A program made the position numbers and the translations under genes. The notes beneath the pieces were generated by a model. The model worked only from the letters and a program-made list of their open reading frames with translations, was not told where the DNA came from and made no database searches. Source: a bacterium (GTDB lineage: Bacteria > Joyebacterota > Joyebacteria > Joyebacterales > Joyebacteraceae). From it: DNA of 36,041 bases. The stretch spans positions 1 through 36,041 of the forward strand of contig JALGWI010000025.1 of NCBI GenBank assembly GCA_025774245.1. The letters are read 5' to 3'. Position 1 is the first letter of the stretch. Each line of letters starts with the position of its first letter. Shown piece after piece: positions 4,301 to 24,173 of the stretch.

Positions 4301-5962
4301 CTAGCGAACGAGAACGACCTTCTCCGTCTTCGTCACTGCCCCCACCTCGAGCCTGACGAGGTAGACGCCGGCGGACACGGGGAGCCCGGCTTCGTCGGTC
4401 CCGTCCCAGAGGGCGGCACGTCGTGTCTCGCTCGTGGGCCCGTCAGCGAGCATCCTCACGAGCTGTCCTCGCACGTTGTAGATCGCGAGCGTAGCCAGGC
4501 GATCGGCATCCCCGACCTCGAAGTGAATGGTCGTATCGAGCGTGAACGGGTTGGGGCTGCAGGGGGAGAGAGCCGGCCATCGCTCCTCGGCAGCGGTCAC
4601 TCCCGAGACCGGTGAATACTTGGCCGTGACGAAGTCGCGGCTGTTTCCGCTGTTCCAGCAGTAGCCGGTCACGTGCACGCAATCACCAGGCCCCACGGCC
4701 ATCCCCCACACCCAGTCGTCCCCGCTCTCCGTCCCGTTGAGCCTCGCCACCCATTCCTCGTTTCCCAAGGCGTCGTACTTCACGGTCGTGCAGTCCCACA
4801 TGGTTCCGGCGCCGACGCTCGCGCCGGCCACGTACACATTACCAACTCCGTCCGCTGCGATGCTGTGGGGGCAGTCCCAGTCGCTGCCCGGCCCGTCATA
4901 TCTCGTGACCCATTCCTCGCTGCCGTCGGCGTCGTATTTGATGGTCGCATAGTCGAAGTGACTACCGGGGCCGCGACTGCGACCAACGACGAACACGCTG
5001 CCGTCGGGACCGAGGGTGATGTCGTAGCCGTCGTCCTCGGCATCCGCCGTCCCGTTGTATCGCGCCACCCACTCTTCGTTACCGTCCGGGTCGTACTTGA
5101 CGGTCGCGAAGTCGTTGTTTATCCCCAGGAGTTCGCTCTGGCTCTCGCCGGTCACGTACACGCAGCCGTCGGCATCCACAGCGATCCCCCACCATGCGCC
5201 GTCACTGCCGCTGATCGGTCCGTCGTACCTCGCGACCCACTCCTCGTTGCCGTCGGGGTCGTACTTGATCGTCGCGTAGTCGTACTTGGTGCCCGCGCCG
5301 AAGCTCCTTCCCGACACGTAGACGTATCCCTCATCGTCGAGTGCGAGCGAGTTAGACCAGTCCTCCGAGCTCCCGGGACCGTCATACCTCGCCACCCACA
5401 CTTCGTTCCCGTCGGGGTCATACTTGATGGTGGCGTAGTCGAGCGACGTCCCGTCTCCCGTGCTCCGTCCAGTGACGTAGACGTATCCCGCTTCGTCCAC
5501 GGCGATTGCCCAAGCCCAGTCATAGTCGTTTCCGGGGCCGTCGTATCTGGCCACCCACTCCTCATTGCCGTATGTGTCGTACTTGATCGTCGCGTAGTCG
5601 CACCCGCTTCCGTCTCCGGTGCTCCTTCCGGTTACGTACGCGTTCCCGGCGTCGTCCACAGCAATGTCATAAGCTTCGTCAAGCAGACTCGCCGGCCCGT
5701 TGTATCTGGCGACCCACTGCTCGTTCCCGTTCGCATCGTACTTGATGGTCGCGTAGTCGAATCCGGTCCCGGCTCCGAGGCTTCCGCCACACATGTACAC
5801 ATTGCCTGCGTCGTCGACGGCGATCTGCCAGCCCTCGTCGAGGGAGTTGCCGGTGCCGTCATACTCCGCCACCCACCACGCGTCGAATCCCTGGCCGCTT
5901 GCTGGTGCTACGAAGAAAACAAGCACCACAGCGGCGACGAACCATCGTCGTGCGCCCGTCAT
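4301..5962 (-). CDS. Secreted SBBP beta-propeller protein with FlgD-type C-terminal domain
   Basis: A 553-residue exported protein. The frame is open to 6085, but the ATG at 5962 has AGGAGG 7-8 nt upstream and starts a clear signal peptide (MTGARRWFVAAVVLVFFVAP). Eight repeats of about 53 residues follow, each of the form VARYDGPG..D.....AVD..G.VYVTGRS.G.G...DYATIKYD..GNEEW. This is the SBBP (seven/eight-bladed propeller) repeat; the first starts near residue 28 and the eighth ends near 450. Eight copies suggest one closed eight-bladed propeller. The last 90 residues are a FlgD/type IX-like domain (SPNPFTLDTTIHF ... SAGVYLVRLEVG ... KVVLVR). The likely role is a surface scaffold or adhesion protein; no enzyme motif is visible. 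Element A (6156-6194) lies about 190 bases upstream. Confidence 0.87.
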   Translation of the reverse strand: MTGARRWFVAAVVLVFFVAPASGQGFDAWWVAEYDGTGNSLDEGWQIAVDDAGNVYMCGGSLGAGTGFDYATIKYDANGNEQWVARYNGPASLLDEAYDIAVDDAGNAYVTGRSTGDGSGCDYATIKYDTYGNEEWVARYDGPGNDYDWAWAIAVDEAGYVYVTGRSTGDGTSLDYATIKYDPDGNEVWVARYDGPGSSEDWSNSLALDDEGYVYVSGRSFGAGTKYDYATIKYDPDGNEEWVARYDGPISGSDGAWWGIAVDADGCVYVTGESQSELLGINNDFATVKYDPDGNEEWVARYNGTADAEDDGYDITLGPDGSVFVVGRSRGPGSHFDYATIKYDADGSEEWVTRYDGPGSDWDCPHSIAADGVGNVYVAGASVGAGTMWDCTTVKYDALGNEEWVARLNGTESGDDWVWGMAVGPGDCVHVTGYCWNSGNSRDFVTAKYSPVSGVTAAEERWPALSPCSPNPFTLDTTIHFEVGDADRLATLAIYNVRGQLVRMLADGPTSETRRAALWDGTDEAGLPVSAGVYLVRLEVGAVTKTEKVVLVR

Positions 5963-6291
5963 GCGAAGCCTCCTCTCATCGCCCAGCGGTCTCCCGGCCG
6001 GAGACCGGCCTCGCTCCCACAACGCAGCAACCGCCGCACCGCCAGCGAGCGCGGGATCCGGCCAGGCCAATCCCCGCGCTCGCACGCCTCGCCACAGCCT
6101 AGGTGCAACCCGGGGGGCGAGTTCGTGCGTGTCTGACGGCTCTCGACTGCTTCAACACAAGTACAGCGCTCGGGTGGGAATGTTGGTGGGATTCCGGGGG
6201 GATCGAGGATCAGTGTGCCGCTGTTGGGAGATGATCGCCGGAACTGGTGTGTCTGCGCGAAGAGGAGAGGACGGGCGCCCCCTCCGAGGAG
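5963..6291 (-). other. 329-base intergenic leader holding element A
   Basis: No gene is supported here. The stretch lies between the stop of the 6292-9153 gene and the start of the propeller gene, all leftward. It contains the conserved two-box element A (6156-6194). I see no strong intrinsic terminator for the upstream gene. Confidence 0.5.
6156..6194 (-). promoter_or_regulatory. Element A: two-box ECF-type promoter candidate
   Basis: Read on the minus strand this is GGAATCCCACCAACAT, 16 nt, TACTTGTG. The CCAACAT box (6180-6186) and the TACTTGTG box (6156-6163) match elements B and C exactly in both the boxes and the 16-nt spacing. The AAC core followed by a 16-nt spacer resembles ECF sigma -35/-10 architecture. 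It would drive the propeller gene (start 5962) and, by read-through, the WGR-tail gene at 2979-4244. Confidence 0.6.
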
Positions 6292-9153
6292 TCACTTCAC
6301 GAGGATCATCTTCTTCGTGGAAGCGAAGCCGGGCGCAGTAATGCGGTAGAAGTACACGCCGCTCGCGCACCTCTCACCCGCGTCGTTCCTGCCGTTCCAG
6401 ACGACCCGTCCCGAGGTTCCCGCTTCGACCTCGGAAAGGAGAAGCGTCCGCACCACCTTCCCCGCGACGTTCACGACCTGTATCGTCACGGGGCCGGCGT
6501 CCTTCACGCTGTAGGCGATCTCCGTCACCGGATTGAAGGGATTCGGGTAGGCCTGGCTCAGGGAGTTCACCGCTCCGCTATCGACGATGCTCGTTCCGGG
6601 CTCGGTCGGTGTCTTCCCGAAGTACTCCATGATGTTCCCGAGCAGGTCCACGCGGTCCTCGATCCCCGTGTGGAAATAGCCCTCGGGAGTGTAGTTCGTG
6701 GCACCTCCGTTCACCACGCCGTCCATGACGCGGTGCAGGCAGAAGCCCAGGTTCACCGTCTGGTAACCCCTGGCCGGGGACGTGTACGCAACGCCCGCCG
6801 GCCTTCTTATCCCGTCGGTGCGCACGTAGTCGAGGGCGACCTCGGCGCCCGCGGTGCCCGGCCACACGTCAACGACGTCGAACAGGCCGAGCGGGTCCGG
6901 GCACCCTCCCTGGAGGATGCACTCGCCGTCATCGTGCGTCAGGAAGGTGTAGCCTCCGGCGCGGTTCTCCAGGCCGGGGATGCTGTCGACGGTCACCTCA
7001 CCTACCGAGCCCTCGATGAACTCCGTCGCGAGCCACGTCCTGTAGAATCCCAGCGTCTCCTGCTCATCCTCGATGAGGTAAGTCCCGATGTTCTCGCCTG
7101 TGAGGAGGAGATTCCGCTCCTTCCCGTCGGCGGACTGGGCAAGCCAGTTCACGAGGTTCATCTGGTTGCGCCTGGTGACCGGTGATCCATCGGGATATCC
7201 CGCCGCCCAGATCACGGTGTCGTAGTACTTGAGGCCCGTCGTGTCCGGCCGGTACCAGTCCCCCCCCGATGCGATCGTCTCGACCTCGAACGATTCGTAT
7301 CGATATCCCAGGATCTCGAGGGCGTCCCGGTAGTAGTCGTTGATCCACTGCCTGTAGTTCCGTTCAGCGCCGACTGCCGGGCGGAGGTTCGCGTCGACCA
7401 GGAGGATCCCCGGATTCGTCACGGACGCCTCGAGAGGCAGAATCGACATCTCGAAGTGGTCGTCGGGTATCTTCTCCCAGTACTGATGGTAGACACCGTC
7501 GGGCCACACGGAGATGTTCCCCGCGCCGTCGGTCGCCTCGTAGTAGAACCAGATCTCGCTTCCCGGTGTCATCTGGCGCGCGGGCGGCGGGATCTCCCAC
7601 CAATCACTCAGGGGGTTCTCGCGGACGCACGCGTACGCCTCCCAGCTCTCCCCTGCATCGTTCGACGCGATGAGGTACACGGACACGACCCCGTCGGGGT
7701 CGCCGATCCGGGCGCGCGCCATGTCCACGAGCGCCTCGTCAAGATCATCCACGAACCAGTCGTGCAAGGCCTCGTCGGACTCCTGAAACCAGCTCGTCCC
7801 CGGATCGACCGAGGGAATCCCGAGCCGGACGCGGTTGAGCATGAGCCCGGCCCAGTGCGTCCCCCCCGCCTGTGGGGGAGAGAGGTTCTTCCCGACCCAG
7901 AGCGTCGCCAGCCAGTCGTTCCCGGCGAACACATCGAAGTCCGTCGTGATCGTGTACCATCTCGGAGGCGGGGTCCACCAGCCGAAACTCTCATAGAGGT
8001 CGCCGTAGAAACCCTCGTAGTACCTCGTACACTCGAGAAGATCCGTCGATGCGACCCGGACGGTCAACGCATCGCCGGATTCCCCTGGGAAATCCAACCA
8101 CGCGTCGAACTTCGAGACGAGGTGCGGCGCGTCGCTGATATCGATGGGAGGGCTCAGCAGCCACGAGTGCTGGCCGTCGACCATCGTGCTCGTCCAGGGA
8201 TCCACCGCGGCCATGACCCAAGTGCCCTCCGGACGATCTTCACACAGGAAGCCCCGGCCGGTGACGAAGTCGATGCCATACCGCCCCCGCTGGAAGGTCA
8301 CGGAGGTCTGGCCACGGGGCTCCAGATCATCATGGACCCACCCCACGCTGCCGGACTCGCAGTCGTCGACCCAGAACGGGCCGGAGGGCCCCGACCAAGC
8401 GATGTTGTCGAGCTGCCACGCGCCGTCCCGATACGAGTGGGGGGGCTCGTCAAACCTGTCCTGCGACGACCCCCTCACCTCATCCGATTCGAAGCGGAAG
8501 CGGAGATCGATCGTCAAGCCGGCGTGGGCGTCGAGATCGATCGAGACGTGTCCGCGCTCGGGGTCGTCCCAGTCCACGGGAAACCCCGGCTTCCCGGCGA
8601 ACCCCGGATTGGTCACCGTGTGCACCGTGGTCCACGTCTCGCCACCGTCAGTTGAGATGTCGGTATACCCGTAGTCGAAGTCGTGCTCCATCGCGAAGCG
8701 CTGGTCGTAGTCGAGGGTCAGGTCGTCCCCGACGTTCGTGTTCGCCTCGATCTCCGGGAAGCTCCGCTCGAGGATCTGCACCCATCCGTTGGCGTAGCCG
8801 CGGGGCTGCCGCCAGCAGTTGTTGTACACCCCACACCACCACGTGCTGTCGCCCAGATGATCGAATCCGTTGATCCGAATCGTGTCGTGGTGCCAGAAGT
8901 TCTCCTGGCCGATTGTCCCGCTCCTGTCGAACGACGTCCATCCGGCGTTGTCACCGGTCACCGTGGAGAAATCTGCATCGAAGATCCAGAGGGTCTCGGG
9001 CCTCCCCCCCGTCAGGTCGCCTGCGGCGCGCGGCCGGACGTCCCCGAGGGGCGCGGCACTCATGGACGCCCGAGGAACCTCGGGCTCGCGAGCCTCCGCA
9101 GCCGAGATCAGTACCGCGACCCCGAGGGCAAGCGCGAGCAGCTGTCGTCTCAT
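6292..9153 (-). CDS. Large secreted YWCG-domain protein with FlgD-type C-terminal domain
   Basis: A 953-residue exported protein. The ATG at 9153 is chosen over the in-frame 9213 because it follows CGGAGGAAG and opens a signal peptide (MRRQLLALALGVAVLISAAEA). Near residue 100 it carries STWWCG...RGYANGW, the Trp-Cys motif shared with the proteins at 2979 and 14687. It continues with beta-rich MAM/immune-inhibitor-A-like modules (ISTDGGETWTTV, DGAWQLDNIAWSG, SWLLSPPIDISD). Around residues 600-800 is an alpha/beta segment (PGILLVDANLR ... YYDTVIWAAGYPDG ... NLLLTGENIG) resembling a glutamine-amidotransferase-like fold. It ends in a canonical FlgD/type IX-like domain (YPNPFNPVTEIAYSV ... ASGVYFYRI ... 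KKMILVK). No peptidase zinc motif was seen. The likely role is a surface or extracellular structural protein; the substrate is unknown. A good sigma-70 promoter lies at 9234-9263. Confidence 0.85.
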   Translation of the reverse strand: MRRQLLALALGVAVLISAAEAREPEVPRASMSAAPLGDVRPRAAGDLTGGRPETLWIFDADFSTVTGDNAGWTSFDRSGTIGQENFWHHDTIRINGFDHLGDSTWWCGVYNNCWRQPRGYANGWVQILERSFPEIEANTNVGDDLTLDYDQRFAMEHDFDYGYTDISTDGGETWTTVHTVTNPGFAGKPGFPVDWDDPERGHVSIDLDAHAGLTIDLRFRFESDEVRGSSQDRFDEPPHSYRDGAWQLDNIAWSGPSGPFWVDDCESGSVGWVHDDLEPRGQTSVTFQRGRYGIDFVTGRGFLCEDRPEGTWVMAAVDPWTSTMVDGQHSWLLSPPIDISDAPHLVSKFDAWLDFPGESGDALTVRVASTDLLECTRYYEGFYGDLYESFGWWTPPPRWYTITTDFDVFAGNDWLATLWVGKNLSPPQAGGTHWAGLMLNRVRLGIPSVDPGTSWFQESDEALHDWFVDDLDEALVDMARARIGDPDGVVSVYLIASNDAGESWEAYACVRENPLSDWWEIPPPARQMTPGSEIWFYYEATDGAGNISVWPDGVYHQYWEKIPDDHFEMSILPLEASVTNPGILLVDANLRPAVGAERNYRQWINDYYRDALEILGYRYESFEVETIASGGDWYRPDTTGLKYYDTVIWAAGYPDGSPVTRRNQMNLVNWLAQSADGKERNLLLTGENIGTYLIEDEQETLGFYRTWLATEFIEGSVGEVTVDSIPGLENRAGGYTFLTHDDGECILQGGCPDPLGLFDVVDVWPGTAGAEVALDYVRTDGIRRPAGVAYTSPARGYQTVNLGFCLHRVMDGVVNGGATNYTPEGYFHTGIEDRVDLLGNIMEYFGKTPTEPGTSIVDSGAVNSLSQAYPNPFNPVTEIAYSVKDAGPVTIQVVNVAGKVVRTLLLSEVEAGTSGRVVWNGRNDAGERCASGVYFYRITAPGFASTKKMILVK

Positions 9154-9233
9154 GGCCGGTCTTCCTCCGGGGAGCAAAGCGTCAAACGCGCCGGATGCGA
9201 TTCCTCGCGCCATCGCTCTGCCGAGTAACCCTC

Positions 9234-9263
9234 AGTATATCACACGAAGGAGCCCCCCATCAA
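9234..9263 (-). promoter_or_regulatory. Sigma-70 promoter for the 6292-9153 gene
   Basis: On the minus strand: TTGATG (9258-9263), an 18-bp spacer and TATACT (9234-9239), with TG one base before the -10 (extended -10). It lies about 80 bases from the start codon at 9153. Confidence 0.6.
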
Positions 9264-9326
9264 GCGACGGCCCGGTGCGGTTTCCCGCCCGCAGCCGCCT
9301 CAGTCCGCTCTTCGGGAGGAATCTGC

Positions 9327-9355
9327 TGGCCACGTCCGCACCCGTTCACTAGAAT
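9327..9355 (+). promoter_or_regulatory. Candidate sigma-70 promoter for kinase 1
   Basis: TGGCCA (9327-9332), a 17-bp spacer and TAGAAT (9350-9355). Transcription would start near 9362. That makes the GTG at 9371 almost leaderless and favours the ATG at 9464 as the translation start. Confidence 0.45.
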
Positions 9356-9463
9356 GAGGATGTACTGTAAGTGATTCTCAGTCGCCTCGGTACGCGGCGC
9401 GCGCCGTACGTCGGCAGAGGAATCCGCTGGAGCCGCTTCGGCCATCCACGGGGAGCCCCGTCC

Positions 9464-12115
9464 ATGACCGGCCAGACCATCTCCCACTACAGGATCATCG
9501 AGAAGATCGGCGAAGGCGGCATGGGCGTCGTCTACAAGGCCGAGGACACGAAGCTCCGACGCACCGTCGCCCTCAAATTCCTCGCCCCGCACGCTATCGG
9601 CACCGACCGGCAGAAGCAGCGATTCATCCACGAGGCACAGGCGGCTGCCGCGCTCGACCATCCCAACATCTGCACCGTCTACGAGATCGATGAGGACGAC
9701 GGTCACACCTTCATCGCCATGGCCCTGATCGAGGGCCAGAGCCTGGAGGAAGCCGTCGCGGCCGGTCCCCTCAAGCTCACCGACACCACCGACATCGCGA
9801 GCCAGGTCGCCGAGGGACTCGCGGCTGCGCACGAGAAAGGCGTCGTCCACCGCGACATCAAGCCCGGCAACGTGATGATCACGCCGAGAGGACGCGCGAA
9901 GATCATGGACTTCGGTCTCGCCAAGTTCGTCGAGCACACGAGGCTCACGAGGACCGGCATGACCACGGGCACCGTCGCCTACATGTCGCCCGAGCAGGCG
10001 TGCGGGCAGGAGGTCGACCACCGCACGGACATCTGGGCGCTCGGTGTGATGCTCTACGAGATGGTCACGGGGAGGCAGCCGTTCGAAGGCAGCGCGGACC
10101 AGGCGGTGGTCTACTCGATCCTGAGTGAGGAACCGGTGCCGATGACGGCACTCAGAAGCCGGGTGCCGATGGACCTCGAGCGGATCGCGGCGAAGGCGAT
10201 GGCGAAGCGACCCGAGGAGCGGTACCAGACGATGGCCGACATGCTGGTCGATCTCCGGGCGGTCGGCCGGTTCGTCGAGTCCGGCGACGCATCCGCGCAC
10301 AGCTCGCTGAGGCCGGTGGGAACGCGCACACAGCTCAGGGCGAAGCGGAGGAGGATGCTGTTTGGTGTCGCTGCAGCCGCCGCCGTCGCAGTGCTCTCGT
10401 GGCTCGGATGGACGCAGCTCAGGACGCCGTCATCCAGGCTCGACCCGGATCTCGTCGTCGTCGCCGTCTTCGAGAACCGGACGGGCGATGAGCTCCTCAA
10501 CTCCGTCGGCCAGATGACGGCGGACTGTGTCACGCAGGGGCTCTCCCAGACGGGCCTCGTCGACGTCGCTCCGGCGGCGAGAGCCCGGGCGCGATCGCAG
10601 GCGGCGGCCCCTTCTGACGGCACCCCCCGTGAGCTCGCGGAGTTCCGGGCGCTGGCAGAGGAGACGGGGGCGGGAACGGTGGTCTCGGGCGCGTACTATC
10701 TCGGCGACGGGAACATCCGATTCCAGACCAGCGTCACCGATGTCTCGAGGGGGAAGCTCATCTATGCCCTGCCGATGATCGAGGGACCGGAAACGTCTCC
10801 GATGGCGGTCATCGACGACGTCTGCGGGCGGGTCGCCGGCGTACTGGCGACGGACTTCGACCCCGTTCTGGATTCGAGCCCACCCACGTTGGAAGCCTAC
10901 CGCGAGTATGTCGCTGGCCTCGATCTGTGGCATGTCGACTGGGCCGGGGCGGCCGACCACTTCCACAAGGCCTCCGAGCTCGATTCGAGCTACATGTGGC
11001 CCCAAGTACTGAGAGCAGTGTGCCTGTTCTGCCTGGGCAGGCACGCGGAGGCGGATTCGATAGTGAGCGCCCTGGACCGGAGGAGACAGGAGTTTACCCC
11101 CTCCGAGCGGCTTCGTCTCGACGCGATGGCGGCGACCCTCCACGGACGCATCGAGGAGTCCCTGCGGCATCTCCGCCGGCTGGACGCCCTGTTCGAGACG
11201 AGCGAGTCCGGGAAGCACATCGATCGGCTCTTTGTGAAGCGGTTTATCGCCAAGGACGCGATCCTCCTCAACCGACCCCGGGAGGCCCTGGATGCCCTGG
11301 AGGGGTGCTCCAAGGTGTGTGAGGAGTGGGAGCGGCGGGGTCAGCCGTCGGGCACCCTCCCGGAGATGTTCGCCTTCCGGTACGAGTGCGCCGCCCGCCA
11401 CCTGCTGGGGGACTACGGGCAGGAACTGAGTGCAGCGCGCGACGCGCGATCGATCTACCCTGATGAGCCGCACGTGAGAGTGTGCGAGATCCGCGCCCTC
11501 GTCGGCCTGGACCGCGTCGAGGAGGCACTCAGGGTCTTCGACGCGTGCGTGGGCGCGCCGCTGGCAGCGCGCTTCACCAGTGACTTCTTCGTAGAGGTAT
11601 CGGGCGAGCTGCGAGCGCACGGACACCGGGAGGCATCGCTTGCCGTGGCGAGCCGCGGCGTGGAGGTGTACCGCAGCCGCCCGCCGGACGAGGCGAGCAC
11701 GGCGGCACACCGGTCGGACCTGGCGGCGCTTCTCTATGCCGCCGAGCGCTGGGACGAGGCACGGCTGCTCTTTGAGGAGCTCTCCGCGGAGCACCCCGAC
11801 AACGACTTCTACAGCGGTTGGTACAAGGCATTCCTTGGCTGTCTTGCAGCCAGGGAAGGGAGAAGGGAGGACGCGGTCAGGATCTCCGAGGAACTCGCAG
11901 AGCTGACTGACCCCTACCGTCATGACCTCTACACCTACTGGCGTGCCGGAATCGCGGCCGTCCTCGGGAACTACGAGGAAGCGATGCGGCTTCTCCAGGC
12001 CGCGACAGCCGAGGGCTCCTGGATGTTCTACGACGCGCACGTCCACTGGAACATGAACCTCGAGTCCCTTCAAGACTACCCGCCGTTCCAGGAGTTCATG
12101 AGGCCAAAGGGGTAG
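9464..12115 (+). CDS. Membrane Ser/Thr protein kinase with TolB-like and TPR sensor region (kinase 1)
   Basis: An 883-residue receptor-type kinase. The ATG at 9464 follows GGGAG and matches the start of its paralogue at 16304; an upstream GTG (9371) is less likely. The Hanks-type kinase domain covers about 1-280. It has the P-loop GEGGMG (16-21), Lys38 in VALK, HRDIKPGN (129-136, catalytic Asp131), DFG (149-151) and [12 protein letters not shown] transmembrane helix lies at about 297-320. The outer part starts with a COG5616/TolB-N-like domain (about 326-470, VVVAVFENRTGDE ... [12 protein letters not shown]) and continues as a TPR-like helical region to the end. The kinase should be active in the cytoplasm, with the TolB/TPR part in the periplasm as a sensor or interaction platform. 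It appears monocistronic, with a terminator at 12171. Confidence 0.92.
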   Translation: MTGQTISHYRIIEKIGEGGMGVVYKAEDTKLRRTVALKFLAPHAIGTDRQKQRFIHEAQAAAALDHPNICTVYEIDEDDGHTFIAMALIEGQSLEEAVAAGPLKLTDTTDIASQVAEGLAAAHEKGVVHRDIKPGNVMITPRGRAKIMDFGLAKFVEHTRLTRTGMTTGTVAYMSPEQACGQEVDHRTDIWALGVMLYEMVTGRQPFEGSADQAVVYSILSEEPVPMTALRSRVPMDLERIAAKAMAKRPEERYQTMADMLVDLRAVGRFVESGDASAHSSLRPVGTRTQLRAKRRRMLFGVAAAAAVAVLSWLGWTQLRTPSSRLDPDLVVVAVFENRTGDELLNSVGQMTADCVTQGLSQTGLVDVAPAARARARSQAAAPSDGTPRELAEFRALAEETGAGTVVSGAYYLGDGNIRFQTSVTDVSRGKLIYALPMIEGPETSPMAVIDDVCGRVAGVLATDFDPVLDSSPPTLEAYREYVAGLDLWHVDWAGAADHFHKASELDSSYMWPQVLRAVCLFCLGRHAEADSIVSALDRRRQEFTPSERLRLDAMAATLHGRIEESLRHLRRLDALFETSESGKHIDRLFVKRFIAKDAILLNRPREALDALEGCSKVCEEWERRGQPSGTLPEMFAFRYECAARHLLGDYGQELSAARDARSIYPDEPHVRVCEIRALVGLDRVEEALRVFDACVGAPLAARFTSDFFVEVSGELRAHGHREASLAVASRGVEVYRSRPPDEASTAAHRSDLAALLYAAERWDEARLLFEELSAEHPDNDFYSGWYKAFLGCLAAREGRREDAVRISEELAELTDPYRHDLYTYWRAGIAAVLGNYEEAMRLLQAATAEGSWMFYDAHVHWNMNLESLQDYPPFQEFMRPKG

Positions 12116-12170
12116 TCCCCCACCTGCATGCCCGCATCCCCTCGCACCACCACGTAACCACCAAGAGCCG

Positions 12171-12197
12171 AGACCCCCGCCGATACGGCGGGGGTCT
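12171..12197 (+). terminator. Intrinsic terminator after kinase 1
   Basis: AGACCCCCGCC / GGCGGGGGTCT is a perfect 11-bp stem with a 5-nt loop (GATAC), followed by ATTCG. The U tract is weak, but the stem is very stable. It lies 55 bases after the kinase stop. Confidence 0.65.
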
Positions 12198-12219
12198 ATT
12201 CGAAGATCCCCCCGGACGA

Positions 12220-12258
12220 GAATCCCACCAACATCTGACCTCCTGAGCGGTACTTGTG
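12220..12258 (+). promoter_or_regulatory. Element C: two-box ECF-type promoter candidate
   Basis: GAATCCCACCAACAT (12220-12234), 16 nt, then TACTTGTG (12251-12258). The boxes and spacing are identical to element A. The preceding GATCCCCCCGGA (about 12205-12216) is also shared with element A, but at a different distance. It lies about 85 bases upstream of the beta-helix gene start at 12344. Confidence 0.62.
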
Positions 12259-12343
12259 GTGAGCACCGCACAGACTGCCGCGCCCGAACGCCACTCCCAC
12301 CCCCTTCGACAGACGCGCGGCATGAACGAAAGGAAGGCCGAAC

Positions 12344-13261
12344 ATGAATCGCAAGACACGAATCCTCGGCGCGATCGGCTCCGCGATCCTCATCATCGTG
12401 CTCGCGCTTCCTTCTCACGCGGCCACGATCCACGTGCCGGGGCAGCAGCCGACCATCCAGGCCGGGATCGAAGCCGCATCGGAAGGCGACACCGTCGTCG
12501 TCGCCTCCGGCACGTACTACGAGCACGATATCGTCCTGAAATCGGGAGTGCGTCTCCGGAGCGAGACCGGAGAGGCGGACTGCGTGACGATCGACGCGCA
12601 GGGACGATACATGGCGTGCATCATCCAGTGCGTCGGCGTCGACGCTTCGACCAGCATCACCGGGTTCACGATCACAGGAGCCTGGCACGCGAACGGCGGC
12701 GGGATGAAATGTCTCCGTGGAGCGTCCCCCACACTCACGAACATCGTGTTCGCACAGAACATCTCCGACTACGGCGGGGCGCTCTACTGCTCAAACGCCT
12801 CGCCCGTTCTCAGGAACGTGACCTTCAGGGGCAACTGGGCCTACCTCGCCGGAGGCGGGATGTACTGCGAGTCCTCGTCCCCCGCCCTCGCCGACTGCAC
12901 GTTCACGAACAACACCGCGGACGTCGACGGCGGAGGACTCTGTGCCCGTGTCGGTTCGTTGCCCGCGCTCTCGGGCTGCACCTTCACCGGCAACACCGCC
13001 GGCAACTCGGGCGGCGGGATGTGCTGCCACGATAATTCCTGCCCGACCGTGATCGACTGCACGTTCAGTGGCAACAGCGCCGAGACGGGCAGCGCGATGT
13101 GCTGCGCCGACGACAGCTCTCCGACGGTCGTCGGCTGCACGTTCTCGGGGAACGTCGAGGCAAGTGTGGTGCCCGCGTCCGGGTCCGAGCGACTGCCGGT
13201 GGCGGGAAGCGGCGTCGAGAGTGGCCCGGCAAGCGCCGGTGAATCGCACACAAATTCGTGA
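12344..13261 (+). CDS. Secreted right-handed beta-helix protein
   Basis: A 305-residue exported protein. The ATG at 12344 follows GAAAGGAAGG and begins a signal peptide (MNRKTRILGAIGSAILIIVLALPSHA). The mature part starts with ATIHVPGQQPTIQAGIEAA and continues with about seven rungs of a parallel beta-helix of the pectate-lyase/DUF1565 kind. The rungs repeat forms such as SPTLTNIVFAQNISDYGGALYC and CTFTGNTAGNSGGGM. These proteins usually bind or cleave polysaccharide or act as surface adhesins; no catalytic residues can be assigned. It is related to the longer protein at 33528-34658 but stops after the helix, with a low-complexity tail (PASGSERLPVAGSG...). It has neither the WGR tail nor a FlgD-type domain, so it may be C-terminally shortened. 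Element C suggests ECF control. Confidence 0.85.
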   Translation: MNRKTRILGAIGSAILIIVLALPSHAATIHVPGQQPTIQAGIEAASEGDTVVVASGTYYEHDIVLKSGVRLRSETGEADCVTIDAQGRYMACIIQCVGVDASTSITGFTITGAWHANGGGMKCLRGASPTLTNIVFAQNISDYGGALYCSNASPVLRNVTFRGNWAYLAGGGMYCESSSPALADCTFTNNTADVDGGGLCARVGSLPALSGCTFTGNTAGNSGGGMCCHDNSCPTVIDCTFSGNSAETGSAMCCADDSSPTVVGCTFSGNVEASVVPASGSERLPVAGSGVESGPASAGESHTNS

Positions 13262-13298
13262 CTCGCCGTTCATGTTCTTCCCTGCCATCTGCCGCGAA

Positions 13299-13337
13299 AA
13301 AACCCACCAACTTCTCCCGCCCGTCGTTGTAGTTCTA
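13299..13337 (+). promoter_or_regulatory. Element D: two-box ECF-type promoter candidate
   Basis: AAAACCCACCAACTT (13299-13313), 16 nt, then TAGTTCTA (13330-13337). It is the same architecture as elements A-C but with G instead of C in the second box. It precedes the ECF sigma gene at 13449 by about 110 bases, which suggests autoregulation. Confidence 0.55.
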
Positions 13338-13340
13338 GTG

Positions 13341-13358
13341 TGGAGTCGCACGACTCCA
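13341..13358 (+). promoter_or_regulatory. Palindrome at the predicted transcription start of sigma 1
   Basis: TGGAGTCG-CA-CGACTCCA is a perfect 8+2+8 inverted repeat starting four bases after the second box of element D, where transcription should begin. It could be an operator overlapping +1 or a 5' hairpin in the mRNA. Confidence 0.4.
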
Positions 13359-13448
13359 TGAGAGACAATTGAGTAGACCTCCGGGAACCGAGACCGAGCA
13401 CGACCGCCCCGCTCGAACCGGGGCACCCAGGATCGCGACGGAGGAAGG

Positions 13449-14132
13449 ATGTCGGGTGTCCAGCGCATAGCTCCCATCCCCCGCGGCACCGGGATACGCC
13501 CGGCGCGAACCACGCCACGCCCGGGAACTCAGCCGCCGACCAGGAGAGATCCGAGCGGAGTCCGGTCATCCTCGTCCTCGTCCGGCGTCCTGGCGGTCGA
13601 AGAGGACACCTATCTCGCCATCCGCGCGAGCTCCGGGAACATCGCTGCCTTCGAATCGCTCGTTGTGAAGTACCAGCAGCCGGTCTTCAATATCGCCCTC
13701 GGCATCGTCAAGAACCACGACGATGCCGCCGACATCACGCAGACGGTCTTCGCCAAGGTGTACAGGCGGCTCGGCAGCTACAACCCGAGGTACCGCTTCT
13801 TCAGCTGGGTTTACCGGATCACCGTCAACGAGTCCCTCAACTACTTCAAGAGATGGAGACGCGAGATCGCCGTCGACAGGGAGATCGGCGTCGCCAAGAG
13901 AGCCGCTTCGGATACAGCGATCCGACACGAGAGGGAGGACCACCTCAACGCCGCCCTCGCGACTCTCAAGCCCGACTACCGGGTCGTCGTGGTGCTCAAG
14001 TACTTCATCGGTTTCTCATACAAGGAGATCGCCGAGATCGTGAGCATCTCCGAGAAGACAGTGAAGTCGAGGCTCTTCACGGCGAGGCACCAGCTGAGAG
14101 ACACGTTGACCAAGCGAGGTTTCCAGAGATGA
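13449..14132 (+). CDS. ECF-family RNA polymerase sigma factor 1
   Basis: A 227-residue sigma-70 family protein of the ECF type. The ATG at 13449 directly follows GGAGGAAGG. The first about 50 residues are a Pro/Arg/Ser-rich extension unusual for ECF factors. Region 2 spans about 55-135 (AFESLVVKYQQPVFNIAL ... DDAADITQTVFAKVYRRL ... YRFFSWVYRITVNESLNY). Region 4 spans about 165-222 (KPDYRVVVVLKYFIGFSYKEIAEI ... EKTVKSRLFTARHQLRD). No extra C-terminal domain is present. Its stop overlaps the next start (ATGA), coupling it to a small anti-sigma-like protein. The paralogue at 19819 shares long identical stretches in both regions. Element D upstream suggests self-activation. Confidence 0.9.
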   Translation: MSGVQRIAPIPRGTGIRPARTTPRPGTQPPTRRDPSGVRSSSSSSGVLAVEEDTYLAIRASSGNIAAFESLVVKYQQPVFNIALGIVKNHDDAADITQTVFAKVYRRLGSYNPRYRFFSWVYRITVNESLNYFKRWRREIAVDREIGVAKRAASDTAIRHEREDHLNAALATLKPDYRVVVVLKYFIGFSYKEIAEIVSISEKTVKSRLFTARHQLRDTLTKRGFQR

Positions 14133-14482
14133 TCGACGAGAGAATGGCAGAACTGATGCAGCGCGAGATCGACGGGGTCGTCTCTTCGAAGGATAGCGCG
14201 GAACTTCACCGCTACCTTGCAGAGAATCCGCAGGCCTTGGCGTACTACGAGGAGCTTCGCGAGGTCGACCGCGCCCTGAGCATCGGCGGATGTGCGGCAC
14301 CGCCTGCGGATCTCAAGGACGCCATTGTGGCCGCAGCCCGAGAGACCACCGGCCCCACTCCCAAGGGCGGCCTTGGCGCGACCATCATCAACGTCATCCG
14401 CGCGACCGTGTACAGCTGGCTTCCCAAGAGGCCGGCGCCCGACACAGCGCACGTGGCGGTGGTCGTCCGTCCGGACGAGTAG
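14129..14482 (+). CDS. Small anti-sigma-like protein, partner of sigma 1
   Basis: A 117-residue protein whose ATG overlaps the sigma 1 stop by four bases. Its first 75 residues (ERMAELMQREIDG ... ELHRYL ... AYYEELREVDRAL ... PPADLKDAI) align with the N-terminal domain of the anti-sigma at 20352. That is the part expected to bind the sigma factor. Unlike that paralogue it has no clear transmembrane helix or periplasmic domain; only a short hydrophobic stretch (INVIRATVYSWL) precedes the end. It lacks the His-Cys motif of zinc-binding anti-sigmas. It is therefore probably a soluble or peripherally bound anti-sigma. The role rests on position and on the paralogue. Confidence 0.72.
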   Translation: MIDERMAELMQREIDGVVSSKDSAELHRYLAENPQALAYYEELREVDRALSIGGCAAPPADLKDAIVAAARETTGPTPKGGLGATIINVIRATVYSWLPKRPAPDTAHVAVVVRPDE

Positions 14483-14494
14483 AAGACACACCAC

Positions 14495-14569
14495 GATCCT
14501 CCGCACCGGCCCGCTGGAGGATCCTGAGCCCCGCGGGTGAACCGGGTTCCCCCCCTACCCGCGGGGCTC
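14495..14569 (+). terminator. Tandem hairpins after the sigma 1/anti-sigma operon
   Basis: Two stems follow the stop at 14482. The first is GATCCTCC/GGAGGATC (14495-14502 with 14516-14523). The second is GAGCCCCGCGGGT/ACCCGCGGGGCTC (14526-14538 with 14557-14569, 13 bp perfect). Neither has a long U tract, but the second is strong enough to end the rightward transcript. Confidence 0.55.
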
Positions 14570-14632
14570 GCATATCACGGATTGCCACCCCGACCGACTC
14601 GCTCCTGGCGCGGCGGTCGTCCGCCCAAGACA

Positions 14633-14660
14633 AGGGCCCGGTCCGGGAGGACCGGGCCCT
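14633..14660 (-). terminator. Intrinsic terminator of the 14687-15904 gene
   Basis: AGGGCCCGGTCC / GGACCGGGCCCT is a perfect 12-bp stem with a 4-nt loop, 27 bases beyond the leftward gene's stop. On the minus strand it is followed by TGTCTTG. It may act in both directions between the convergent operons. Confidence 0.65.
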
Positions 14661-14686
14661 GCCACGCGGCCGCCGGAGCTGTACCC

Positions 14687-15904
14687 CTATCTGTACAGCC
14701 CCTTGATCCGCCCCCAGCTAATCTCCTCCTCGGAGACGGCGGTCCAGTTCCACGCGACGACCCAGACGTCGTCCAGGAAGGAGCCCCCCGCTCCGCACAC
14801 GCCGGGACCGATGCCGTCATCGTCGGTGTACACGGTGATCCGAAGCCGCATACTGTGCGCCGGGAGGAACATATTGACGGTGTAACCGGCGAGGCCGTTG
14901 GGGCTGAACTGGTTGCACCCGTCGACCTCCTCCTCGGCATAGTCGTTGCGGGCCGCCAGGATCCATGTCTCACCATCGTCGAAGCTGGCCTGGATCATAC
15001 GCGTGTCGGTGAGGTCCCCGTCGCCGCAGTGGGCTCCCGCGTAGAAGACCCTGGCGGAGGTCGTCCCCTCGAGGTGGATCGGTGGAGTCGTCAATCTGAC
15101 GAACACGTTTGGGGGAACGGAGGTTGTGTCGCCGGGCGCATTGATGCAGACACACGTTGGGTCACTGTAGGCGCGGCAAGGAAGCTCGATCAGCCGAGGG
15201 ACGATGCCCGTGGCAGGCACATCGACAGCGGTACAGAGCCCCACGCCGTCCTCGACGTCGTCGTAGAAGTAGTCCGTTCCTGTGACCCAATCGAAGACAC
15301 GGATCTCGTCGCAGTGAAAGGCCCCCCCGTCCGTGTTCGAGCCGTCCTCGTCGGACTGCCACTCGTTGGACTTGAGGCGGAATCTGACCTTCAGCGGGTT
15401 GTCGCACGGTTGGACGTCGAGGGCGGGCTGTTCCTGCCAGCCAGCGCTGAACCCCAGATACTCGGCCAGCGCCCTGTACTCGCCGAGGTACTTCACCTCG
15501 ACCCGCGTGACGTCCCCCGCCGCTGCGGGGATGCTATGATGCCGATAACGGAAGCTCAGCCTCGGCTGCGTCGCGCCGGCAAGATCGATCTCCGGAAGCT
15601 CGAGCAGCATGTGCCAGCCGTTGCCGTATCCTCCGTCGGCGTCGTACTCGAAGGTGCCGCACCAGTACGAGTAGTTCGGTTCCGTCCCGTCGTCGTAGGC
15701 GTAGTGCTCGGAGACGTGGAACTCGGACGGCCTCCCTGTCATATCCTCGAGGATCCAGCCCTGACCGCCGTTCTCCCAGTCCTCACGGAAGACCTCGAAC
15801 CACTCGCGGCCAAGTGGGGACTCCGGGGGCTCCCCGGCCGGTGCGACCGACACGGTGATCGCGACAAGGGCAACTGCCACCGTCATCACAACTGGCACTC
15901 TCAT
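14687..15904 (-). CDS. Secreted YWCG-domain protein with C-terminal WGR tail (paralogue of 2979-4244)
   Basis: A 405-residue exported protein of unknown function. The ATG at 15904 follows GAGAGGAAG and opens a signal peptide (MRVPVVMTVAVALVAITVSVAPA). The first half carries SYWCGTFEYDADGGYGNGW (near residue 85), almost identical to the protein at 2979, then SFRYRHHS, RFRLKSNEWQSDEDG and GGAFHCDEIRVFDWVTG in the same order. The second half (CRAYSDPTCVC ... DDGETW) corresponds to the other protein's second module but is more diverged. It ends SEEEISWGRIKGLYR. Element B lies about 105 bases upstream, so this gene and the 4301/2979 pair are probably co-regulated. A terminator follows at 14633. 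Confidence 0.82.
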   Translation of the reverse strand: MRVPVVMTVAVALVAITVSVAPAGEPPESPLGREWFEVFREDWENGGQGWILEDMTGRPSEFHVSEHYAYDDGTEPNYSYWCGTFEYDADGGYGNGWHMLLELPEIDLAGATQPRLSFRYRHHSIPAAAGDVTRVEVKYLGEYRALAEYLGFSAGWQEQPALDVQPCDNPLKVRFRLKSNEWQSDEDGSNTDGGAFHCDEIRVFDWVTGTDYFYDDVEDGVGLCTAVDVPATGIVPRLIELPCRAYSDPTCVCINAPGDTTSVPPNVFVRLTTPPIHLEGTTSARVFYAGAHCGDGDLTDTRMIQASFDDGETWILAARNDYAEEEVDGCNQFSPNGLAGYTVNMFLPAHSMRLRITVYTDDDGIGPGVCGAGGSFLDDVWVVAWNWTAVSEEEISWGRIKGLYR

Positions 15905-16015
15905 CCCAGACTTCCTCTCGGTTGATGCAGGAACGGACTCGACACGGGAATCGAAGATGCACGTGCGGCGGCCGCTCGAAGAACCTCAGCACGTGGCGAC
16001 CTCCAGCGCACCTGT

Positions 16016-16054
16016 CACAAGTACAACCGCTCGGCCGAAATGTTGGCGAGATTC
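16016..16054 (-). promoter_or_regulatory. Element B: two-box ECF-type promoter candidate
   Basis: On the minus strand: GAATCTCGCCAACAT, 16 nt, TACTTGTG. CCAACAT is 16040-16046 and TACTTGTG is 16016-16023. The core boxes and spacing are identical to elements A and C. It faces the WGR-tail gene starting at 15904. Confidence 0.62.
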
Positions 16055-16160
16055 CCTCGCGCTGCCACCGAATCCGACTCCCCCACGCCCTGACCGCAGG
16101 CACTACTGAATGCCCGCTCAACAACAACCATCAGAATCCTCTATGCACCATGCCGCTTCA

Positions 16161-16173
16161 CCATTTACAATGG
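16161..16173 (+). promoter_or_regulatory. Palindrome over a possible -10 box of kinase 2
   Basis: CCATT-TAC-AATGG is an inverted repeat that contains TACAAT (16166-16171), a possible -10 box about 130 bases before the kinase 2 start. No convincing -35 is seen. An operator is possible. Confidence 0.3.
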
Positions 16174-16303
16174 TTGGGAACATCCCTGACCAGAGTTCAC
16201 ACGCTCCCAACTCCGGCGGACGCCGCGCCAGGGTCTGACGGATGCGTCCGGACGAGGGTGCAGAGCGCCGGGTCGAGTTATGCGTCGGCCCGGAGGATTC
16301 TCC

Positions 16304-18913
16304 ATGGTCCGCGACACGATCTCGCACTACCGAATCCTCGCGAAGCTCGGCGAGGGCGGCATGGGCGTCGTCTACAAGGCTGAGGACGTGAGCCTTGGAC
16401 GGACCGTCGCGCTCAAGTTCGTCCGCCCGGACGCCGTGGGCTCCGACCGGGAACGTGCGCGCCTCATCCGCGAGGCGCAGGCGGCCGCCCGCCTCGACCA
16501 CCCCAACGTCTGCACGATCCACGAGATCGACACGGTCGACGGAGAGACCTTCGTCGCGATGGCCTACGTCGAGGGCGAGGACCTGAAGGCGCGGATCGCC
16601 GCGCGGCCCCTCCCCCTCGACGACGCGCTCGACATCGCCATCCAGGTGGCCGAGGGCCTCGCCGCCGCGCACGAGAAGGGGATCGTCCACCGCGACATCA
16701 AACCCGCGAACATCATCGTCACGCCTGCGGGTCGCGCGAAGGTGATGGACTTCGGCCTCGCGCACGTCGTCGACCAGACGAGGCTCACGAAGGCCGGGAC
16801 GACCACAGGTACCGTCGCGTACATGTCACCGGAGCAGGCGCGCGGAGAAGAGGTCGATCTCCGGACCGACATCTGGTCGCTCGGCGTGACGCTCTACGAG
16901 ATGGTCACGGGACAGCGTCCCTTCCGCGGCGCGTCCGAGCAGGCCGTGATCTACTCGATCCTGAACGAGTCCCCCGAGCCGTTGACGGCGCTCCGAAGCG
17001 GCGTGCCCGTCGACCTCGAACGCATTGTGTCGAAGGCGATGGCCAAGCGCCCGGCCGAACGCTACCAGGACGCCGCCGATCTCCTCGTCGACCTCCGGGC
17101 GATCAAGGTCGAACTCGGCAGCCAGAGCGCCACGGTCGCGACCGCGCGTGCCAGCACCGCCCCTGCGGCGGCCGACAGCCCTCCCCGATGGGGGAGACGC
17201 GGTGTCGCCGCCGTGACGACCGTCGTCGCTGTTGCGGTTGTCGTCGCGGGCATCGCGCTCGTGAGACTTCGCGCCCCGTCCTCCGACCTCAGCCCCGACC
17301 ACGTCGTCGTGGCTCCGTTCGAGAACAGGACCGGCGATCCGTCGCTCGACCCGGTCGGTCCCATGGCCGCCGACTGGATCACGCAGGGGCTCTCGCAGAC
17401 CGGCGTCGTCCAGGTCGTGCCGACGATGACGCCGCTCGGGCCCGCGACAGGCCTCCCGGGCAAAGGCGACGAGGCCGCCCCCTCTACTATAGAGAGCCTC
17501 GCCGAGGCGACCGGCGCCGGCACGGTGGTCTCCGGCGCCTACTACCTCGACGGTGGCGACCTCAGGTTCCAGGCCGAGATCACCGACGCCACACGAGGCA
17601 GACTCCTCCAGACGCTGCCGCCGTCGACCGGACCGCGCGGAAGCCCGATGGAAGCGATCACGTCGATCCGCCAGCGGATCATGGGCGCGCTAGCGGCCGA
17701 GTTCGACCCGCACCTTCCGTCGCACGCGGACGTCCAGCCGCCTCTCTTCGAGGCCTATCAGGAGTACGTCGTCGGGACCGAGCTCTTCGGGACCGACTAC
17801 TCCGCCGCCATCCATCACTTCGAGCGCGCCGCGGACCTCGACTCGACGTTCATGGCGCCCCGGTTCGAAGTCGCGTACTCGTACAACAACCGGCGCGAGT
17901 ACGCGAAGGCCGACTCCGTCTTCCGCCTGATCGACCAGAACAGGAACCGGCTCACGCCGTACCAGCGCCTCATCGTGCGGTCGCAGCTGGCGAACCTCGA
18001 GGGCTCGATCGGCGAAGCCCTGAGTTTCCACCGCCAGGCCGCCGAGCTGGTGCCGCCCTCCTTCTTCGACACGTTCCTGATCGGGCAGTACGCCGTCGCG
18101 CTCAACCGGCCCGGGGAGGCGGTCGAGGCGTTCGAGGAGGCGAAGCGCCTCTCGGAGGGCTCCTCATCCATAACGGCGGCGTGGCTCGCCGGCCACCTGG
18201 CACGGGCGCACCACCTCGTGGGAAGCCACGAGAAGGAGCTCGCCGAGATCCGCGAGGCCTGCGAGCGCCACCCGGATAACCTGAGGCTCCGCGTCGCCGA
18301 AGTACGCGCGCTCGCCGCGCTCGGCCACATCGACGAGATCGACCGCGTGATCGATGAGAGCCTCGGCATGTCGGGGCCCGGCTCCCCCGGCGAGGTCATG
18401 CGCGCCGCCGCAGTCGAGTTGCGAGCTCACGGCCATCGCGAGGACTCGCTCAGGACCGCCGAACGCGCCGTCGAGTGGTACCGCGGCCGCCCGGCAGAAG
18501 AGGCTGCGGGCCGTCGTCACCGACAGAGGCTCGCGGGATCGCTCTATGTGGCCGAGCGTTGGGAGGAGGCCGCGGGGCTTTTCGAGGAACTCCTACAGGA
18601 GGCCCCGGACGGGGTCACCAACAGGGCGCACCTCGCGACGATTGCCGCGCGTCAGGGCGACCGCGCGGAGGCCGAGAGGCTCTCCGCCGAGCTCGAGAAT
18701 CTCGCGCGCCCCTACCTCTTCGGGGTCGATCTCTACTTCCGCGCCGACATCGCCGCGCTCCTGGGAGAGCGCGAGCGAGCCGTGGAGCTCCTGAGAGAGG
18801 CGCGCGCGGCGGGATGCGGGTCCGCGATCCCGATGGGACTCCACAACGACATGGACCTGGAGTCGCTTCGCGGCTATCCGCCGTTCGAGGAGCTCCGGCG
18901 GCCGAAGGGATAG
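16304..18913 (+). CDS. Membrane Ser/Thr protein kinase with TolB-like and TPR sensor region (kinase 2)
   Basis: An 869-residue paralogue of the kinase at 9464, with the same architecture. The ATG at 16304 has GGAGG 7 nt upstream; an ATG 24 bases earlier is weaker. The kinase domain (about 1-280) has GEGGMG (16-21), Lys38, HRDIKPAN (129-136), DFG (149-151) and MSPEQA. A transmembrane helix lies at about 300-322 ([20 protein letters not shown]). It is followed by the TolB/COG5616-like domain ([14 protein letters not shown] ... [16 protein letters not shown]) and a TPR-like region ending [17 protein letters not shown], nearly the ending of kinase 1. Only 36 bases separate it from an RsbW-like gene and a STAS gene. 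Here the kinase probably feeds, or is fed by, a partner-switching module. Confidence 0.92.
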
Positions 18914-18949
18914 CCGGCCAGCGACGCTGCACCGCACCGAGGAACGACG

Positions 18950-19378
18950 ATGGAGAAGGACTTCGAGAGAACGATCGAAGCGCTGAACGAGATCTTCCCG
19001 CTCGTCGACGGGTTCCTGAGCGAGCACGACATCGGGGACGACGACGCCCTCGCGATCAGGCTCGCCGTGGAGGAGCTCTTCACGAACCTGGTCCGGCACA
19101 ACAGCGGCGGGCGCGATCGGATCTCGCTCGCCCTCGAGAAGGAAGAAGACCGCCTCATCATCCGGCTCACCGACTTCGACGTCGACGAATTCGACCCGTC
19201 GAAGATCGCAATACCCAAGGTGAAGAGGCCGATCTCGGAAAGGAAGGTCGGGGGGCTGGGCGTCTACCTCGTCCGGAAGCTCTTCGACGAGCTCCACTAC
19301 GAATACGAAAACAGAACGTTGTCCGTCACCGCCACGAGGGATATTGGGAGGAAGGATGTTCGACATCCGGCGAGCTGA
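18950..19378 (+). CDS. RsbW-like anti-sigma/serine kinase (GHKL ATPase fold)
   Basis: A 142-residue protein with the HATPase_c_2 layout of RsbW/SpoIIAB. The N-box is AVEELFTNLVRHN (about 39-51). A D-box-like segment (LTDFDVDEFDP) is followed by GGLGVYLVRKLFDEL, the glycine-rich lid. Proteins of this kind bind a sigma factor or another target and phosphorylate their STAS partner. The glycines usual in the D-box (DxGxGF) are replaced here, so ATP binding should be tested. It follows kinase 2 and overlaps the STAS gene by 23 bases, the classic RsbW/RsbV pairing. Which target it releases is not visible; the nearest downstream sigma gene is at 19819. Confidence 0.85.
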   Translation: MEKDFERTIEALNEIFPLVDGFLSEHDIGDDDALAIRLAVEELFTNLVRHNSGGRDRISLALEKEEDRLIIRLTDFDVDEFDPSKIAIPKVKRPISERKVGGLGVYLVRKLFDELHYEYENRTLSVTATRDIGRKDVRHPAS

Positions 19379-19640
19379 GAATGGGACCGTCATGCTATCG
19401 GGCAGGCTCGACGCCTCGCAGGCCGAGAAGGCGAGGGGCATACTCGCCACGATCACGGAATCTTGCGCTATCGACTTCACCGATCTGGACTACATCTCCA
19501 GCCTGGGGCTGGGAGTTCTCCTGGAGGCGCAGAAGCGGCTGAACGAGTCAGGCCAGGGTCTCACGCTCACCAATCTGAACGACCACCTCGCGGACCTCTT
19601 CCGGCTCGCGGGCTTCGACATCCTCTTCGAGATTCAGTGA
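19356..19640 (+). CDS. STAS-domain anti-sigma factor antagonist (RsbV-like)
   Basis: A 94-residue single STAS domain. The ATG at 19356 follows GGGAGGAAGG and is preferred over a TTG twelve bases earlier. The order is MFDIRRAENGTVMLSGRLDA, then IDFTDLDYISSLGLGVLLEAQ, then LTLTNLNDHLADLFRLAGF, typical of anti-anti-sigma proteins. Ser48/Ser49 in YISSLGLG lie where the phosphorylated serine sits in the family. It overlaps the RsbW-like gene, so the two are translated together and probably act as a switch pair. Confidence 0.88.
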   Translation: MFDIRRAENGTVMLSGRLDASQAEKARGILATITESCAIDFTDLDYISSLGLGVLLEAQKRLNESGQGLTLTNLNDHLADLFRLAGFDILFEIQ

Positions 19641-19782
19641 ACGAGTATTCAGCTTTGCCCGGGCGGCCCGCCGCCCGACTCGATGTGAGGAGGCCGCGAG
19701 CCCGGGGGGCCGGGAAGCGCCCGGGGCGGCCGCATCGACGGGGAGCACGGGGGGACGCGTACCCCCTTCACGGGAGCGACAA

Positions 19783-19821
19783 GAACGTCACCAACCTTCG
19801 CCGGGATTATGCGTAGTTATG
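19783..19821 (+). promoter_or_regulatory. Element E: two-box ECF-type promoter candidate overlapping the sigma 2 start
   Basis: GAACGTCACCAACCT (19783-19797), 16 nt, then TAGTTATG (19814-19821). It matches element D best (TAGTT second box). The second box runs into the ATG at 19819, so a transcript from this element would lack that codon unless the start or the role of the element differs. Confidence 0.5.
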
Positions 19822-23994: not shown

Positions 23995-24134
23995 ACGACA
24001 GGATGGACGCCGGCCCCTTCGCTGCGGGGCGGAGGGGCCGGTCGGTGAGGTAGCGAGCGGTATCGACCCGCCTGAGATGAGAGACCGGGAAGCGGGGGAC
24101 GATGCGTGGGGTGCATCTTCTCCCGTTTCTCGTG

Positions 24135-24140
24135 TATACT
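24135..24140 (+). promoter_or_regulatory. Candidate -10 box for the HExxH protease gene
   Basis: TATACT lies 34 bases before the start at 24174, preceded by a weak -35 (TGCATC, 24112-24117, 17-bp spacing). Only the -10 is convincing. Confidence 0.4.
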
Positions 24141-24173
24141 GGTTCCATCACTTCTCTTCCAGGGGGGCCCGCC

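Follow-up and report, generated by a model that had tools for sequence, protein, structure and literature searches.

A probable two-box ECF-type promoter element in a Candidatus Eisenbacteria-type genome and its conserved placement at the start codon of related sigma factor genes

Our analysis of a stretch of 36,041 nucleotides (the window, contig C120) from a metagenome-assembled genome (MAG) of Candidatus Eisenbacteria type (G000; 3.23 Mb, 97% complete) revealed a locus with two genes for extracytoplasmic function (ECF) sigma factors, ECF1 and ECF2, several genes for secreted proteins and five copies of a promoter-like element made up of two boxes. Both sigma factors contained the domains Sigma70_r2 and Sigma70_r4_2 above cut-off, TIGR02937 also scored above cut-off, and ECF2 matched sigma-H, SigW and sigma-E in the PDB. 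ECF1 and ECF2 are paralogues with 55% identity that have in common a nearly identical sigma-4 helix, EKTVKSRLFTARHQLR. Directly upstream of ECF2 an RsbW-like HATPase_c_2 protein and an RsbV-like STAS-domain protein are encoded side by side, the arrangement of kinase and antagonist known from RsbV/RsbW-type modules, and the genes for a putative membrane anti-sigma factor, a membrane-anchored protein and a large exported protein follow downstream.

A first-pass annotation of the window had reported five copies of the element with an invariant spacing of 16 nt, each upstream of and pointing towards a gene start, and had proposed that they are targets of the two local ECF sigma factors and define a regulon. 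A pattern search of the window for RCCAACNT-N16-TANTT recovered exactly these five copies without mismatches, while shuffled sequences gave a mean of 0.11 and at most 2 matches. With spacings of 10 to 23 between CCAAC and TANNT, only one unrelated match, at 21, was found besides those at 16. A position weight matrix was used to scan the window and selected contigs, and the whole genome (3,232,083 bases, 128 contigs), for which the annotation had suggested a search with both boxes, was scanned with patterns. Here CCAACNT-N16-TANTT occurred five times, always in the window, and a reversed control pattern once. The longer pattern GAANNYCRCCAACNT-N16-TASTT was matched perfectly by four copies and with one mismatch (AAA for GAA) by the copy at 13299, and nowhere else in the genome did a match come closer than two mismatches. 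The exact copies in this genome precede only genes inside the locus, and the genome-wide list of targets is thus the window itself. A chance origin of the five copies is ruled out by the shuffled sequences and the genome-wide search. Copies 1, 2 and 4 do have GAATC(C/T)C(A/G)CCAACAT and GTACTTGTG in common, as might be seen in copies of one duplicated intergenic segment, but the spacers are unrelated in sequence and across phyla the boxes are conserved and the spacers are not, which leaves a chance or repeat-derived likeness with a negligible probability.

Two copies precede the genes of ECF1 and ECF2 and three precede genes for secreted or surface proteins, as the annotation had stated. A point not foreseen in the annotation is the position of the copy at ECF2: elements 1 to 4 leave leaders of about 80-190 nt, with ribosome binding sites visible before 5962 and 13449, but element 5 touches the start codon of ECF2 (TAGTT directly followed by ATG, 19818/19819). 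The two boxes, a -35 box CCAAC(A/T/C)T and a -10 box GTA(C/G)TT arranged as AAC-N17-GTA, have the features of ECF-type promoters, namely AAC in the -35 box, a triplet-containing -10 box and an AAC-N16/17 spacing, and we consider it very probable that the five elements are ECF-type promoters of this ECF family. That they are promoters of the two local sigma factors and form a local regulon appears highly likely from sequence comparison; the proposal of the annotation gains support from the genome-wide confinement of the sites, their geometry, the near-identical sigma-4 helices, the sites in front of ECF2 relatives and their absence from other ECF genes (see below). It is likewise quite likely that the regulon is confined to the locus. 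The copies at surface genes (AT...GTACTT) differ slightly from those at ECF genes ((T/C)T...GTAGTT), and ECF1 is N-terminally extended and lacks a HATPase-STAS pair immediately upstream, which might indicate a two-step cascade where only ECF2 reads the five sites and ECF1 is a downstream target with a different specificity. Given the likeness of the two helices, and with no second recurrent motif seen, though no systematic search for one was made, such a cascade seems rather unlikely.

A scan of one genome per species (84,980 species) yielded 80 loci related to ECF2, labelled as Candidatus Eisenbacteria, KSB1, Calditrichota, Ignavibacteria/Bacteroidetes, Gemmatimonadota, Krumholzibacteriota, Latescibacterota, Zixibacteria, Acidobacteria and Proteobacteria; these roughly ten phylum-level groups are MAG labels and are to be read with care. 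The relatives include records of Caldithrix. A site was present just upstream of the ECF gene in 78 of the 80 scored loci, the window's own ECF2 counted, including the relatives in G001, G003, G005, G018 and others. Sites with a score of at least 8 were found in 77/80 upstream regions of the family compared with 10/366 control windows and 0/21 ECF genes of other groups, the latter drawn from the window's family of genomes. Outside Eisenbacteria the consensus is (A/G)CCAAC(T/C)TTT-N-TGTANTT. The spacer between CAACNN and GTA is 15 in 72/78 sites of the family. The second box touches the ATG in G000, G001, G003 and G005, and in G001 and G005 the spacer has one extra base, so that the invariance described for the 16-nt spacing holds for all five window copies but gives way to 17 in some relatives. 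A genus-wide search found no close relative of ECF2 in G002. Taken together, the comparison supports an element that is specific to this ECF family and has been kept in front of its genes in about ten phylum-level groups. Further sites were seen before secreted-protein genes in G003 and G005. Over 26 whole genomes the strict pattern occurred 0-5 times per genome (40 in total, versus 6 for a control pattern), and small local regulons therefore look typical. In a Calditrichia genome (G023) the motif precedes two genes that by eye are caspase-like (C14-type; L174 and L189).

An operator for another DNA-binding protein, be it a repressor or an activator acting over the ECF start codon, would be a different explanation of the motif, and overlap with a start codon is generally a common operator position. 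We regard it as very unlikely, since the layout is non-palindromic with two boxes in the geometry of ECF promoters and a nearly uniform spacing, the sites go with this ECF family but not with other ECFs, and at the other targets the distance from site to gene start is about 50-190 nt, as expected for promoters.

Table 1. Features of the locus. Predicted start points of elements follow from a pyrimidine-purine (YR) step 9-10 nt after GTA; core denotes the match to RCCAACNT-N16-TANTT.
Feature	Position	Strand	Remarks
Promoter-like element 1	6159-6194	-	GAATCCCACCAACATT-N14-GTACTT; core 6159-6187; predicted start ~6153
Promoter-like element 2	12220-12255	+	GAATCCCACCAACATC-N14-GTACTT; core 12227-12255; predicted start ~12261
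Promoter-like element 3	13299-13334	+	AAAACCCACCAACTTC-N14-GTAGTT; core 13306-13334; predicted start ~13340
Promoter-like element 4	16019-16054	-	GAATCTCGCCAACATT-N14-GTACTT; core 16019-16047; predicted start ~16013
Promoter-like element 5	19783-19818	+	GAACGTCACCAACCTT-N14-GTAGTT; core 19790-19818; predicted start ~19824, inside the open reading frame
Target 1, secreted SBBP beta-propeller protein	4301-5962	-	FlgD_ig/Por_Secre_tail-like C-terminus; AGGAGG upstream of ATG 5962
Probable second gene of element-1 operon, secreted protein	2979-4244	-	~56 nt downstream of target 1; ends SWGRVKAMYR
Target 2, secreted right-handed beta-helix protein	12344-13261	+	Chlam_PMP-type repeats
Target 3, ECF1 sigma factor	13449-14132	+	GGAGGAAGG upstream of ATG
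N-terminal extension of ECF1	13449-13600		~50 residues
Target 4, secreted MAM-like protein	14687-15904	-	layout similar to 2979-4244; ends SWGRIKGLYR
Target 5, ECF2 sigma factor	19819-20355	+	query for family comparison
RsbW-like HATPase_c_2 protein	18950-19378	+	cassette member
RsbV-like STAS-domain protein	19344-19640	+	cassette member
Putative membrane anti-sigma factor	20352-21152	+	start overlaps ECF2 stop as ATGA
Cassette third gene, membrane-anchored protein	21247-23994	+	GTIGAVQKYRAEQIGDDDVVL signature
Cassette fourth gene, large exported protein	24102-27179	+	HELVH motif; barrel-like end (by eye)
PrsW-family intramembrane protease	27187-28194		downstream of ECF2 cassette
Ser/Thr kinase-TPR protein	9371-12115		beside ECF gene
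Ser/Thr kinase-TPR protein	16280-18913		beside ECF gene
C-terminal tag	2979-3008	-	
C-terminal tag	14687-14716	-	
C-terminal tag	34629-34658	+	
C-terminal tag	end of 30873-31358	+	

The position of element 5 recurs in most of the family. The start codon follows GTANNT at 0 nt in 58/78 loci, the next commonest offsets being -1 and +3 with four loci each. Shine-Dalgarno-like tetramers were not enriched at these ECF starts (5/58, versus 2.75 in shuffled sequence), and in the same loci a Shine-Dalgarno was present at 44/67 STAS starts and 44/64 third-gene starts. Eisenbacteria surface-gene sites often read GTACTTGTG, but at most other non-ECF sites the box is not followed by RTG, and a promoter consensus that includes the start codon was therefore rejected as an explanation of the ATG. 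Alternative starts of ECF2 were also dismissed; downstream TTG/GTG codons are not shared among loci, and most loci have no other in-frame start nearby upstream.

Mapping of five ECF promoters of Sinorhizobium meliloti by two methods placed the transcription starts 9, 9, 9, 9 and 10 nt after GTC/GTT (counted from the table in PMC6180224). Among the sites collected here, 54/58 non-ECF sites and 52/54 ECF sites had a YR step at a distance of 9-10 nt from GTA (p5p6 or p6p7 after the box). In the ECF sites this distance corresponds to the third position of codon 2 or the first of codon 3, while later equivalent codon boundaries of the ECF genes carried such a step in 19-40 of 54. As element 5 touches the ATG of ECF2, its predicted start point falls inside the open reading frame, and the simplest reading of the step at ECF sites is a self-promoter transcript without the sigma start codon. 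Judged from these signatures, transcription from the ECF self-promoter probably starts within the open reading frame, at codon 2-3, a conclusion in which we place modest confidence.

A possible mode of action can be outlined. The putative membrane anti-sigma factor might hold ECF2 until an envelope signal arrives, upon which the freed sigma factor would switch on the three secreted or surface genes together with ECF1, and ECF1, because of its similar DNA-binding helix, could amplify the same gene set. If, as seems most likely, the element-5 transcript has its 5' end in codon 2-3 and thus lacks the ECF2 AUG, most of the ECF2 protein would come from a longer transcript that reads in from the HATPase-STAS genes. 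The self-promoter would then feed the anti-sigma factor and the downstream genes, or block the incoming polymerase, resulting in a self-limiting loop. This self-limiting role of the ECF2 self-promoter is put forward tentatively, and so is its extension to a widespread ECF family with a fixed self-promoter at its own start codon, whose transcript would serve the anti-sigma factor and effectors and not the sigma factor, in a self-limiting loop across about ten phylum-level groups.

Several observations weigh against the overall interpretation of the elements. No plausible anti-sigma gene was recognised beside ECF1, between 14132 and 14687, such a gene being a common and not an obligatory feature. 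A relative from the same genus (G001, 80% complete) has one convincing copy of the element, before ECF2 and with a spacing of 17. A relaxed pattern with spacers of 14-17 added one place outside the window, a 17-spaced site (G000 C102:5478-5508; L073) upstream of a repeat-bearing paralogue of the third cassette gene, which is only suggestive since the match rate is close to that of control patterns. Some of the YR steps at codon boundaries are to be expected because of codon bias, and neither site set is free of related sequences. The ECF starts have no Shine-Dalgarno for read-through translation, and the start of the anti-sigma gene often overlaps the ECF stop, which points to coupled translation that a transcript without the sigma factor would not provide. 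Together with the exact 0-nt offset in many phyla, these last features would also fit leaderless ECF mRNAs that start at the A of the ATG from the same ECF promoters, with ordinary positive autoregulation of the sigma factor, as is usual for ECFs (PMC8103513). For a leaderless message transcription would have to begin just 4 nt past GTA, with CCAAC at about -28 to -24, which disagrees both with the distance of 9-10 nt from the -10 triplet in mapped ECF promoters (PMC6180224) and with the start signature at the family's other sites, and we consider it rather unlikely.

The genes around ECF2 recur with the promoter. Among the relatives an upstream HATPase was found at 66 loci and a STAS protein at 68, and downstream an anti-sigma factor at 79, the third protein at 65 and the large exported protein at 51. 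These counts are approximate because the profiles were iterated, the HATPase and STAS families are broad and the distances of a few matches are unusual. The gene order is constant. These comparisons support the broader result of a sigma factor cassette that is common to many phyla and includes a conserved, unusually placed self-promoter. The assignment of the putative anti-sigma factor in the window is based on the overlap of its gene with the ECF2 stop, an apparent membrane segment, recognised by eye, weak hits to anti-sigma models below the cut-off (NF052375) and relatives in the same position at nearly all loci. The third gene belongs to a family of membrane-anchored proteins with the signature GTIGxxxKYRxEQIxxxDVxL, which is a fixed part of the ECF cassette in different phyla; the window member has a partial MgtE_N as its only Pfam hit and tandem ERSPVAVQPEGGMM repeats. 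About half of the relatives (~40 loci) carry a second promoter copy in front of the third gene, 1.2-1.7 kb downstream from where the ECF gene starts and with a normal leader. Before the third gene of the window no such copy was found, the best match having 4 mismatches.

In Bacillus subtilis PrsW starts the cleavage of an ECF anti-sigma factor, and the product of the PrsW-family gene downstream of the ECF2 cassette could thus act on the putative anti-sigma factor. The N-terminal extension of ECF1 is rich in Pro, Arg and Ser, begins with MSGVQ and is also present in a relative (G003:C168). The two Ser/Thr kinase-TPR proteins encoded beside the ECF genes are related to each other, and some relatives have one near the cassette. 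The secreted protein encoded behind target 1 gave no Pfam hit. Several secreted proteins of the window close with the C-terminal tag W-G-x-(I/V/L)-K-x-x-(Y/F)-R-stop (Table 1). Matches to its DNA pattern numbered 62 in this genome and 26-62 per genome in the eight others of the family that were searched, with 0 control matches. Most of the more distant genomes tested had few or none. The tag looks like an undescribed sorting signal.

The sigma-E promoter of Escherichia coli, of the GGAACTT-N15-GTCTAA type with AAC in the -35 box, represents the classical autoregulated ECF promoters. The element described here resembles these in the AAC-containing -35 box, the distance between the boxes, the position upstream of a pair of sigma and putative anti-sigma genes and the small target set, but its -35 box begins with CC instead of GG, its -10 box reads GTANTT instead of GTC/CGTC, the -10 box touches the sigma ATG and the sigma gene has no Shine-Dalgarno. 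ECF promoter recognition has been reviewed (PMC8103513). In Streptomyces the position of the promoters sigRp1 and sigRp2 relative to the start codons likewise decides on the sigma product, SigR or the N-terminally extended SigR' (PMC4921905), an unstable form with which the extension of ECF1 may be compared. There, however, two promoters give two sigma forms, while here the transcript from the self-promoter is predicted to give no sigma factor, and the putative anti-sigma factor is a predicted membrane protein and not of the redox-sensing RsrA type. Adjacent HATPase and STAS genes are shared with RsbV/RsbW partner switching systems (B. subtilis sigma-B; Rhodobacter capsulatus RbaV/RbaW, PMC3999984), but the adjacent sigma factor here is an ECF with its own putative membrane anti-sigma factor; no PP2C phosphatase was recognised in the window. 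The ECFs of S. meliloti (PMC6180224) are alike in that most control few genes, and differ in ECF groups, motifs and hosts. The open literature searched contained no description of the cassette or the self-promoter, which is weak evidence of novelty, and nothing matching on the motif, on Eisenbacteria sigma factors or on a linkage of HATPase-STAS with ECF genes.

The elements at this locus provide a regulon defined from sequence in a lineage that lacks genetics, and with the promoter motif further targets of this ECF family may be identified in many lineages that are uncultured. The promoter that touches the start codon of its sigma factor would either contradict the textbook positive autoregulation of ECFs or else reveal leaderless ECF mRNAs with an unusual geometry.

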